A stretch of DNA of 64,000 nucleotides from an uncultured Sphingomonas sp. (GTDB taxonomy: Bacteria > Pseudomonadota > Alphaproteobacteria > Sphingomonadales > Sphingomonadaceae), in the NCBI RefSeq assembly GCF_902806265.1, contig NZ_CADCVZ010000002.1, positions 1 to 64,000 on the forward strand, read 5' to 3'. This document shows positions 8,987 to 54,722 of this stretch, piece after piece. Position 1 is the stretch's first letter. Each line of letters starts with the position of its first letter. The notes under the pieces were generated by a model. It did no database searches. It was not told where the DNA came from and saw only the letters and a list, made by a program, of their open reading frames with translations. Both the position numbers and the translations under genes were made by a program.

Positions 8987-9310
8987 ATGCTGATTCAGGT
9001 GAACCGGGACAATCAGGTGGACGAGCGGGAGGCTCCGACGGAGCTGGTCGAGGGGATCGTAGAGAAGCGGCTCGGCCGCATCCTCGAGAAGGTAAGTGCG
9101 ATCGAGGTGCATGTGGGACACACCAAGACGAGCCGCACGGACCAGCCGGAAATGCGCTGCTCGGTCGAAGTGCGGCCGCTCAACCTGGGCCCGGTCGCGG
9201 CGTCGGCGGAAGGGGTTGGCACCGAGGCCGTCGTCCGCTCGGCCTGCGACAAGGTGCTGCACGCCTATGACAAGGTGATCGGCAAGCAGAACGCACGCGC
9301 CAGCGCCTGA
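8987..9310 (+). CDS. Short HPF/RaiA-family ribosome-associated protein
   Basis: A 107-residue single-domain protein of the sigma-54 modulation/hibernation-promoting factor fold (beta-alpha-beta-beta-beta-alpha). Seen features are the first helix ELVEGIVEKRLGRILEKV, strands AIEVHVGHTK and MRCSVEVRPLN, and the C-terminal helix AVVRSACDKVLHAYDKVIGK. It lacks the C-terminal dimerisation domain of long HPF. The role would be binding the 30S decoding site to silence ribosomes in stress, though the basic patches are less pronounced than in classical HPF. Confidence 0.7.
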   Translation: MLIQVNRDNQVDEREAPTELVEGIVEKRLGRILEKVSAIEVHVGHTKTSRTDQPEMRCSVEVRPLNLGPVAASAEGVGTEAVVRSACDKVLHAYDKVIGKQNARASA

Positions 9311-9316
9311 TCCGCC

Positions 9317-9766
9317 TCATACCGGGTAGGCGGTGGTGTATTTGACTCGCTCCATGGCGAAGTTGCTGGTCACGTTCTTGAGCGGGACGGCGCCGATCAG
9401 GCGACGGTAAAAGTCGTCGAACCCGGCCATGTCGCGAACGGCCACGCGCAGGAGATAGTCGGTCTCGCCGGCCATGCGGTAGATCGCCATCACTTCCGCC
9501 ATGGCTGCGACCGTTTCCGTGAACTGCCGCAGCCACTCGGGGCTGTGGTCGCGCGCCTCGATGCCGACGAAGACGTTGAGGCCGAGCCCGATTGCCTGCG
9601 GGTCGACCAGGGCGACTGTGCGCTGGATCACGCCTGCGGCGCGGAGCTTCTGGATACGGCGCCAGCAGGGCGTGGGGGAGAGCCCAACCGCCGCCGCCAC
9701 CTCGGCCACCGGCTGGTCGGCATCCTCCTGCAGCAGGTGGAGGATCTTGCGGTCGGTATCGTCCAT
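9317..9766 (-). CDS. Lrp/AsnC family transcriptional regulator
   Basis: 149 residues: N-terminal winged helix-turn-helix (residues 1-60, MDDTDRKILHLLQED ... LSPTPCWRRIQKLRAAGVI) followed by an RAM ligand-binding domain (residues 65-145). Lrp/AsnC proteins bind DNA as octameric discs in response to amino acids. The ATG at 9766 begins the canonical MDDTDRKIL start. It is divergent from the candidate small RNA; the target is unknown and no amino-acid catabolic gene is adjacent. Confidence 0.9.
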   Translation of the reverse strand: MDDTDRKILHLLQEDADQPVAEVAAAVGLSPTPCWRRIQKLRAAGVIQRTVALVDPQAIGLGLNVFVGIEARDHSPEWLRQFTETVAAMAEVMAIYRMAGETDYLLRVAVRDMAGFDDFYRRLIGAVPLKNVTSNFAMERVKYTTAYPV

Positions 9767-9848
9767 AGCGTCGAATTGCCCCGGATTGGAAGAATGTTGC
9801 ACTTGGCCGATTGAGCTTGCACGATCAACGTTATTTGCTTGGTCCTCT

Positions 9849-9876
9849 TTGCTGCACCGCAACTCGCGGCTAAATA
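9849..9876 (+). promoter_or_regulatory. Sigma-70-type promoter of candidate small RNA
   Basis: TTGCTG (9849-9854) and TAAATA (9871-9876) are separated by 16 bases. They lie just upstream of a long inverted repeat and 100 bp before an intrinsic terminator on the same strand, with no open reading frame between. Confidence 0.6.
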
Positions 9877-9880
9877 GAGG

Positions 9881-9998
9881 GTGTCCACCCCGGAACGAGG
9901 TTCTGGCGGAGCACGCAAGATTATTCCAATTTGCGGGGTGGACACCCTCCTTTTGAACAACTTGGCCCCGGTGGAGCGATCCGCCGGGGCCGTTTTTA
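9881..9998 (+). ncRNA. Candidate structured small RNA
   Basis: Predicted from sequence only. Downstream of a good promoter comes a perfect 15-bp inverted repeat, 9877-9891 with 9935-9949 (GAGGGTGTCCACCCC and its complement), enclosing 43 bases. Those can form two small hairpins (GAAC/GTTC near 9893-9903 and CGCAA/TTGCG near 9914-9935). It ends in a strong intrinsic terminator. The transcript would be about 115-120 nt. It is not tmRNA, RNase P or SRP RNA: none of their conserved cores is present. 6S RNA is not excluded but would be short. Confidence 0.55.
9964..9998 (+). terminator. Intrinsic terminator of the candidate small RNA
   Basis: An 11-bp stem (GGCCCCGGTGG with CCGCCGGGGCC, one G-T pair) closes a 6-base loop AGCGAT and is followed by GTTTTTATT. 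It is the clearest rho-independent terminator in the window. It points along the plus strand, where no protein gene precedes it; the Lrp gene upstream is on the other strand. Confidence 0.85.
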
Positions 9999-10057
9999 TT
10001 TGCGCGCTCTTTAACCAAGCCCTTGCCAAGGCTGTCGCCTTCTGATTCTGTGTCTTT

Positions 10058-10375
10058 ATGGGGCGGGCAACACAGAAGAGTTTCGGGCTGATCCGGCGGG
10101 CGGCGCTGCCGGCGCTGGCGCTGGTGATCATCGGCACCTTCGGCGGGCATGCGGTGGCCGGGCCCAATGGGTTGCTGGCGCTCGGTGGATACCATCGCGA
10201 CCTGGAGCAGCGGAAGCGCGAGCTCGCGCGGCTGGAAGTGCAGCGCGACCAGTTGAAGCACCGTTCGGCCCTGCTCGATCCGCGCAAGGCCGATCCCGAC
10301 ATGGCCGACGAGCTGGTCCGCCGCGACCTCGGCTTGATCCGCCCCGACGAGGTAATCGTCCCGCTGGAGGATTGA
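10058..10375 (+). CDS. FtsB/DivIC-like septum formation initiator
   Basis: A 105-residue bitopic protein: basic N-terminus, one membrane span (about residues 14-35), then a periplasmic coiled coil (DLEQRKRELARLEVQRDQLKHR, about 47-70) and the family ending AELVRRDLGLIRPDEVIVPL-like. FtsB joins FtsL and FtsQ in the divisome. In Alphaproteobacteria this gene commonly lies between eno and pdhA, as here. Confidence 0.88.
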   Translation: MGRATQKSFGLIRRAALPALALVIIGTFGGHAVAGPNGLLALGGYHRDLEQRKRELARLEVQRDQLKHRSALLDPRKADPDMADELVRRDLGLIRPDEVIVPLED

Positions 10376-10387
10376 GGCTCGGCACGG

Positions 10388-10417
10388 TTGCCCTGACTCG
10401 GCTAGCGCTCATATAGG
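10388..10417 (+). promoter_or_regulatory. Candidate promoter of pdhA
   Basis: TTGCCC (10388-10393) and TATAGG (10412-10417) are 18 bases apart in the 74-bp gap before pdhA. An AAAGG Shine-Dalgarno-like site follows near 10438. Confidence 0.4.
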
Positions 10418-10449
10418 ACGCGCGCGTAGCTCTATCCGAAAGGCCCACC

Positions 10450-11505
10450 GTGGCGCGTTCCGCCAAGACCCAAGCTGCTCCAGCCGCCGTGCCGCTCACG
10501 CCCAATCGCCAGCGCCCGCAGCAGCCTGAGCGATACCAGGCGAGCAAGGAAGAACTGCTCGAACTGTACAAGCAGATGCTGCTGATCCGCCGTTTCGAGG
10601 AGCGGGCGGGGCAGCTCTACGGGCTGGGGCTGATCGGCGGCTTCTGCCACCTCTACATCGGGCAGGAGGCGGTGGCGGTCGGGCTGCAGTCGGCGATGAC
10701 CGTCGGCAAGGACAGCGTGATCACCGGCTATCGCGACCACGGTCACATGCTGGCCTATGGCATCGACCCCAAGCTGATCATGGCGGAGCTGACGGGGCGG
10801 GCCGCCGGCATCTCCAAGGGCAAGGGTGGCTCGATGCACATGTTTTCGGTCGAGCATGGCTTCTACGGCGGGCACGGCATCGTCGGCGCGCAGGTCAGCC
10901 TGGGCACCGGGCTGGCGTTCAAGCATCAGTATTCGGACGACGGCGGCGTATGCCTCAGCTACTTCGGCGACGGCGCGGCCAACCAAGGGCAGGTCTACGA
11001 GAGCTTCAACATGGCCGAGCTGTGGAAGCTGCCGGTCATCTATGCCATCGAGAACAACCATTATGCCATGGGCACCAGCGTCGAGCGCTCGGCGTCCGAG
11101 CCCGACTTCTACAAGCGCGGCGAGAGCTTCCAGATCCCGGGTATCCAGGTCGACGGGATGGACGTGCTGGCGGTGCGCGGAGCGGCGGCGGTCGCGCTGG
11201 AGTGGACCCGGTCGGGCAAGGGCCCGATTATCCTGGAGCTCAAGACCTATCGTTACCGCGGCCATTCGATGAGCGATCCAGCCAAGTACCGCACGCGTGA
11301 GGAAGTGCAGAACTACCGCGAGAACCAGGACCCGATCGATCGCGCTGGCAAGGAGTTGGCGGCGTTGGGTGTGGCCGAGGATGCGCTCAAGGCGATCGAC
11401 AAGGAGATCAAGGAGATCGTGGTGCAGGCGGCCAAGTTCGCGGAGGAAGCCCCGGAGCCGGAGGCGGCCGAGCTGGCCACCGAAGTGCTGGTGGAGCGCT
11501 ACTGA
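10450..11505 (+). CDS. pdhA: Pyruvate dehydrogenase E1 component, alpha subunit
   Basis: Thiamine-diphosphate-dependent decarboxylation of pyruvate, first step of the pyruvate dehydrogenase complex. The protein has 351 residues. The ThDP motif is clear: GDGAANQGQ (about residue 174) followed after the usual interval by [11 protein letters not shown]. The phosphorylation-loop-like segment [18 protein letters not shown] is present. The GTG start precedes an Ala/Pro-rich N-terminus. The stop overlaps the pdhB ATG by one base. Confidence 0.97.
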
Positions 11506-54213: not shown

Positions 54214-54227
54214 AAAAGGCGTAAGTA

Positions 54228-54722
54228 GTGCCGGATAAGCCCCTGAGTTTGCAAGATCATTTCCTGAACAGCCTGCGTCGTTCCAAGACTCCGGTCACGA
54301 TCTTCCTGGTGAAAGGGGTGAAGCTCCAAGGCGTGATCACCTGGTTCGATGCTTTCTCCCTGCTGCTCCGGCGCGAGGGGGTGAACCAGCTGATCTACAA
54401 GCACGCGATGTCGACGATTATGCCTTCGTCCCCGCCCACCGACCTGGAGCTGTCAGGGTTCATCGGGGATCGGGTGGCGGAAGGCCGCGCCACCCTGCAA
54501 GATCGTTTCCTTACCGCCGCAACCCGCCAAAGCGAGCCGATGACCGTGTTCCTGGTAAATGGCGTCATGCTGCAGGGGGAGGTGCTGGCGTTCAACCGCT
54601 TCTCCATGCTGCTCGGCCGCCGCGGCCAACTGCAATTGGTGTACAAGCATGCGGTGTCGACCATGCAGCCCGGCCGCTCCTTGATGCTCGGCAACGGCGA
54701 CGACGAGGAGGGCGGCTCGTGA
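54228..54722 (+). CDS. hfq: RNA chaperone Hfq with two tandem Sm domains
   Basis: 164 residues, twice the usual length. First Sm domain at 8-66 ([30 protein letters not shown] ... [10 protein letters not shown]), second at 90-148 ([30 protein letters not shown] ... [10 protein letters not shown]). Both keep the proximal-face YKH motif (residues 57-59 and 139-141). Rim arginines (Arg17, Arg18) occur only in the first, and the second has Met114 in place of the first's Lys32. Tail acidic ([10 protein letters not shown]). GTG start with AAAAGG site. The tandem form recalls Novosphingobium Hfq. Confidence 0.96.

Follow-up and report, generated by a model that had tools for sequence, protein, structure and literature searches.

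A predicted non-coding RNA between lrp and ftsB

The window, by which we mean the whole 64,000-nucleotide stretch analyzed here, carries an Lrp/AsnC-family regulator gene (lrp) on its minus strand at 9317..9766, with Pfam matches to HTH_AsnC-type and AsnC_trans_reg domains and its start codon at 9766. On the plus strand lies ftsB (10058..10375; DivIC family, Pfam DivIC). Between the two we find a predicted non-coding RNA, also on the plus strand (9882..9998, with a putative start), for which ftsB is the downstream neighbor and lies outside the RNA unit. A candidate promoter, TTTGCT-17-TAAATA (9848..9876, plus strand; hexamers 9848-9853 and 9871-9876), is followed on the same strand by the left arm of a closing stem, GAGGGTGTCCACCCC (9877..9891), and its right arm, GGGGTGGACACCCTC (9935..9949). 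An earlier note on this DNA had claimed a perfect 15-bp inverted repeat at these positions, and direct reading of the sequence confirms that each arm is the perfect complement of the other. Conservation within the RNA loop is highest in a core, GAGCACGCAAGATTATTCCAA (9909..9929), of which positions 9913-9929 constitute an Lrp-type operator, here called box 2. Downstream of the stem, on the plus strand, come a linker, CTTTTGAACAACT (9950..9962), that is unpaired in the fold and has CCUCC immediately 5' of it, and an intrinsic terminator with a T-rich tail (9963..9998). The terminator had been described as strong, with an 11-bp stem; it is strong, and its hairpin (9963-9992) has 13 pairs, 10 of them GC.

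The predicted structure is unusually stable. For the 122-nt strand, the folding energy is -73.8 kcal/mol (z = -7.8), a value that none of 200 shuffles equaled, and the 73-nt hairpin by itself has z = -6.1.

The unit accompanies lrp in 13 genomes of the genus

Using the 21-nt core as a query with up to three mismatches, we detected it in 11 of the 71 genus genomes and not at all in the reversed control. Each of the 11 core-bearing genomes has a single copy, and we therefore reject a repeat or mobile element as the source of the sequence. When up to two mismatches were allowed across 296 genomes of the order, two had the core, both of them members of this genus, and the reversed control gave 1. 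Searching 41 genomes at the DNA level, we recovered the loop core in four other genus genomes (G020, G019, G010 and G016), the remaining matches being terminator-like stretches, and a scan of named genomes gave six loci, of which we judged two (Sphingomonas) to be real and four lay in unrelated bacteria. With G342 and G008 added, the layout beside lrp is found in 13 of the 71 genus genomes, and the divergent neighbor of the RNA is an Lrp-type gene in every one of the 13.

The copies fall into two classes. In class 1 (G000, G342, G210, G312 and G313), the unit is directly upstream of ftsB; in class 2 (G016, G314, G010, G228, G019, G020 and G320), it is away from ftsB, a placement that rests on coordinates relative to ftsB with flanks read for part of the class-2 loci. 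G008 has a similar layout with a different core and is also away from ftsB. The setting upstream of ftsB given in the earlier note is thus true here and in class 1, but it is lrp that the unit goes with, and eight of 13 copies are located elsewhere.

This distribution bears on the possibility that the unit is an ftsB leader or attenuator, riboswitch-like, that controls read-through into ftsB. The position of the five class-1 copies is what such a leader would have, and among the 30 ftsB loci listed the unit occurs at those five alone; the seven class-2 copies and that of G008, however, face lrp at other places. A role as ftsB leader is therefore very improbable and we reject it. At the ftsB locus of G341, whose FtsB is 93% identical to that of this genome, there is no lrp-RNA cassette, and the upstream gene is directly followed by the ftsB leader. 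No lrp match was found in G341 at E 1e-40, in an assembly that is only 86% complete.

We also built a covariance model, R1, from four of the five class-1 sequences (G342 was left out). Every one of the five class-1 genomes has one strong match to it (at least 67 bits), among them that of 103 bits at 9880-9998 of the window, whose own sequence is among the four in the model. At E <=0.01 the model also matches 27 further genomes, bringing the total to 32 of 71, at no more than 38.8 bits, and some of the five class-1 genomes have second, weaker matches, while most class-2 copies are missed. We take the weaker matches for generic hairpin-terminators.

Candidate promoter and operator elements keep near-fixed offsets

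The promoter had been given as TTGCTG-16-TAAATA, the same site as ours with a shift of one base. The position stands, but the site is weak by consensus, and a sigma-70 consensus scan of 9000-10800 returned no sites. Because the scan fails at this site, the promoter rests on comparison among relatives. In all 13 RNA genomes, a TTGC-type -35 is found at an offset of 83-86 from the lrp start. The -10 is less clear than the -35, being TARRTA-like in most class-1 and GCAAAT-like in most class-2 genomes; this comparison covered hexamers at 17-nt spacing only and hence is no test of spacing, and the promoter of G008 would require 19 nt. If the promoter is right, the RNA would start near 9882, so that the outermost three to five pairs of the repeat may be untranscribed. 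Between box 1 (see below) and the promoter lies a further element, GTTATTTGC (9830..9838; GTTATT), with a match to [GC]T[TA][TA]TT at offset 66-68 in 13 of 13 RNA genomes. The core follows at 144-148, and all three elements are thus near-fixed relative to the lrp start. By eye, a sequence similar to the GTTATTTGC element is also present in G004 and G007, two relatives in which lrp faces sulfate-assimilation (cys) genes.

In such cys-facing relatives, dyads of the form TTGGAAGAWTWTTCTAA are found close to both the lrp start and the facing gene. We constructed a 17-bp Lrp matrix from 10 boxes in seven genomes, using only lrp loci without the RNA. The boxes were chosen by eye, and weaker ones were left out (those of G332, G319, G326 and G337, box 1 of G334, G316 and G003, and box 2 of G004). 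This choice makes scores partly circular at the cys-facing loci but not in the RNA genomes. Over the 63,984 positions of the window, the best match is box 1, TTGGAAGAATGTTGCAC (9786..9802), at 17.8 bits, and the second is the core at 9913, at 14.0 bits. The third (52203, 13.7 bits) is within a 790-codon open frame. In all 12 core-bearing genomes, the core is one of the two best matches in the scanned lrp-upstream region (7.7-14.0 bits), and G008 has a different box, of 18.7 bits, in place of the core. At the sequence level, then, the core matches the operator of this Lrp lineage. Within the core but beyond the operator box, GAGC is invariant in 12 of 12 genomes, a hint of a function at the RNA level.

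Class-1 genomes have a strong box 1 (15.5-17.8 bits), as does G008 (11.3 bits), and the offset of the box from the lrp start is identical in these six genomes. A 16-mer box pattern, written to exclude the core, matched box 1 alone, in five of 14 genomes. In class 2, box 1 was not recognized by the matrix (at most 2.4 bits in 7/7 genomes). Several of the class-2 loci L059-L063, L065 and L066 have, by eye, a CTTGCA-N4-TGCAAG-like dyad near the place of the class-1 box 1, possibly a changed operator or the site of another regulator. Of the eight cys-facing loci, six reach at least 9.5 bits in both boxes, the lrp-side box being weak in G003 (-0.1) and G334 (4.7). The two boxes are 119-130 bp apart in G008 and the class-1 genomes; in the eight cys-facing loci, with the weak lrp-side sites of G003 and G334 counted, they are 144-158 bp apart.

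Conservation of the predicted RNA structure

The earlier note had pointed to stem pairing in related genomes as a check on its candidate, and we find that the pairing is kept by compensatory changes in both classes. For class 1, in an alignment of five sequences that was fitted to the structure, both partners have changed in 16 of 37 pairs, and the share of paired cells is 94.0%, versus 38-50% with slid partners. These changes are concentrated in the closing stem (helix 1; 8 of 13 pairs) and the terminator (helix 4; 6 of 12); around the core, helix 2 has none and helix 3 has two. In the seven class-2 sequences, 8 of 43 pairs changed on both sides, six of 15 in a further stem on the downstream side of the core and two of 11 in the terminator, and helices 1-3, which enclose the core, have no such pair. 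The locus therefore combines two properties expected of bacterial small RNAs, an intrinsic terminator with a U-tract and a conserved structure with compensatory change, the latter not around the core.

Structural conservation is uneven in other ways. The class-1 and class-2 RNAs have different folds, and class-2 terminators have poor U-tracts. When the hairpins of 10 of the 13 copies were folded singly, seven gave z <=-2.3, and those of G312 (-0.5), G008 (-0.7) and G016 (-1.2) were barely more stable than shuffles. Full-length folds lack the closing stem in G312 and the core hairpin in G228 and G020.

These patterns can be weighed against the view that the locus works as DNA only, as operators with an insulating terminator or as a cruciform, its RNA being irrelevant. 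Such a view would account for an Lrp-type operator being the most conserved stretch and for the near lack of covariation in the helices around it. It fits poorly with the 43-nt loop between the arms and the covariation of the terminator helix, which are typical of RNA, and with G008, where the promoter-like element and terminator are retained despite a different operator sequence. We regard a DNA-only element as quite improbable. A short gene with a conserved peptide is more improbable still, to the point that we give it almost no credence: a 54-aa open frame with a GTG start (9881-10045) does overlap the unit, but it passes through the terminator, and by eye the two classes do not have the same open frames.

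Comparison with known small RNAs

The earlier note could match the RNA to no common housekeeping RNA, and a covariance search of Rfam places it in no family. In the whole window the only hits at cutoff are three tRNAs, all outside the RNA locus; in 9770-10060 there are five matches, the best at E 0.5 and none at cutoff; and across the 13 loci there are two, both below the gathering cutoff. We therefore reject membership in a known Rfam family. One match, at the class-2 copy of G320 (L066), is to RF02342 (ar7, an alphaproteobacterial sRNA), but its 30.4 bits (E 0.027) compare with a gathering score of 60, and it was seen at one of 13 loci. It is probably a generic hairpin-plus-terminator match.

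Small RNAs tied to a dedicated regulator are known from other bacteria. GcvA is a LysR-type regulator, and gcvA and gcvB are divergent. By analogy, we consider GcvB to be the nearest functional parallel of the predicted RNA. The enterobacterial system resembles the one predicted here in that a small RNA gene lies near its controlling, amino-acid-responsive regulator: GcvA activates gcvB when glycine is high, and a 1,347-bp fragment holds both genes (PMC3658693). The GcvB RNA is 206 nt, however, and the regulator here is Lrp-type, with a predicted operator within the transcribed region. A second likeness is to the AbcR RNAs and VtlR, an alphaproteobacterial small RNA system linked to a dedicated regulator (PMC7486931). 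VtlR, however, is LysR-type and the regulator here Lrp-type, and the comparison with AbcR was made through the Rfam scans, in which no family reached cutoff. A literature search, at the level of search results, returned no report on this RNA, nor on any Lrp-linked small RNA from the Sphingomonadales. The predicted RNA would form a new family, a regulator-linked small RNA is a known sort of system, and the evolutionary setting described below is unusual.

A tandem Hfq, also claimed previously for this genome, is present in the window as one open frame with two Hfq stretches (54225-54719, plus strand), but no link between it and the RNA was seen. Relevant to a possible mode of action is the linker at 9950..9962, which by eye resembles CCCUU..GAACU in most relatives and which we take as a candidate seed of the anti-Shine-Dalgarno type. 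In a search of the 64-kb window for complements of the linker with five short patterns, the sole one near a start codon was the RNA's own antisense, and the search yielded no target.

Sulfate-assimilation genes and a possible origin of the unit

To place the unit in context, we looked at lrp across the genus. An ortholog (E <=1e-40) is found in 24 of 71 genomes: 13 with the RNA, eight facing cys genes and three with other neighbors (G319, G326 and G337). The lrp gene hence faces sulfate-assimilation genes in eight of the 11 other lrp-bearing genomes, and at least six of these have two clear boxes. The cys clusters include, by eye, cysH, siroheme, cysN-like and cysI-like genes, and by Pfam a PAPS reductase and DUF2849. 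Within the genus, cysH occurs in eight of 71 genomes, which are precisely the eight with cys-facing lrp. Direct searches of the 13 RNA genomes and G341 found neither cysH nor DUF2849 in any of the 14, G342 being only 79% complete. In a tree, the Lrp proteins of the RNA genomes form one clade (support 94/88; 96/89 with outgroups), and the cys-facing ones lie on the other side. A single origin is likely. Among 199 sampled genomes of the family, 11 had an Lrp match at E 1e-45, namely our own, nine that were placed with paralogs, and G441, in which an lrp with a strong box faces rpmJ (by eye) without the RNA core.

The three remaining genus genomes have settings of their own. In L152 (G319) and L153 (G337), lrp without cysH faces a terminator-like hairpin (by eye) and is preceded by an Lrp-type box of 20.2 and 26.1 bits, respectively; these hairpins are possibly independent non-coding RNAs or operon scars. 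In L154 (G326), lrp faces a gene that by eye resembles an FMNH2-dependent sulfonate/sulfone monooxygenase and whose first 60 residues have no Pfam match.

The predicted RNA lies where the promoter of a sulfate-assimilation operon is found in the sister lineage. The unit might be no more than the scar of a lost cys operon, with promoter, 5' leader and terminator transcribed without function and the operators kept for lrp autoregulation. A scar would explain the similar two-box layout of cys-facing relatives, the lack of cysH in all 13 RNA genomes, the restriction of the core to one lineage and the loss of the whole cassette in G341. A functionless remnant would not, however, be expected to have both-side changes that preserve the closing stem and the terminator, an invariant core that reaches past the operator to GAGC in 12 of 12 genomes, or an element, -35 and core at near-fixed offsets. 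We consider a scar unlikely, though not so improbable as the alternatives above.

A proposed model for the lrp-RNA unit

Based on the layout, the terminator, the stem pairing, the linkage to lrp and the match of the core to an Lrp-type box, all at the sequence level, we propose that the locus encodes a structured, terminated non-coding RNA of ~115 nt whose promoter is predicted to be under the control of the divergent Lrp through two operators, a reading that we judge reasonably probable. That a lineage-specific regulatory RNA gene is predicted here, and is probably real, is the more general conclusion.

In the proposed mechanism, one operator would lie before lrp and the other inside the transcribed region, ~127 bp away. 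The layout suggests that Lrp may bind both boxes, bridging or looping between them or wrapping the promoter, and box 2, which with a start near 9882 would span roughly +32 to +48, could act as a road-block or as a piece of the wrap. Since this lrp has relatives that adjoin cysH/cysI clusters, Lrp may sense a sulfur amino acid or another amino-acid signal, which the RNA would then report. The RNA could be trans-acting, with its C/U-rich linker (CCUCCUUUU in this genome) directed at ribosome-binding sites and Hfq perhaps taking part.

As to how the unit arose, we tentatively suggest, as a possibility short of a probable one, that the cys operon was lost and its two-operator Lrp promoter kept, that this promoter now drives a structured RNA carrying the regulator's output, and that the downstream operator became the conserved part of that RNA. 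The sister lineages have the same regulator and similar operators, one with cys genes and the other with a predicted non-coding RNA, which makes the locus a tractable case for how small RNAs may arise. It also predicts a specific regulator-RNA pair.

Other candidate Lrp sites

A 15-mer Lrp-box pattern with at most one mismatch has 70 sites in eight genomes. The counts exceed those of the reversed control in G000, G312, G313, G010 and G016, and do not in G210, G228 and G320. We read 17 of the 70 sites: 14 are inside an open frame by a longest-ORF rule, and a shorter start would move two of them upstream of a gene. At L128 (G000:C64:16000-19200), an exact 15-mer near 1512 is located between two divergent genes that by eye encode an outer-membrane receptor (start 1443, minus strand) and a permease-like protein (start 1645, plus strand); a 58-residue stretch of the receptor has no Pfam match. 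This box is a possible second Lrp target in the G000 genome. At L142 (G228), an Lrp-like box with one mismatch at 1439 is flanked by a thiolase-like gene and by a divergent gene of the acyl-CoA dehydrogenase type (both by eye).
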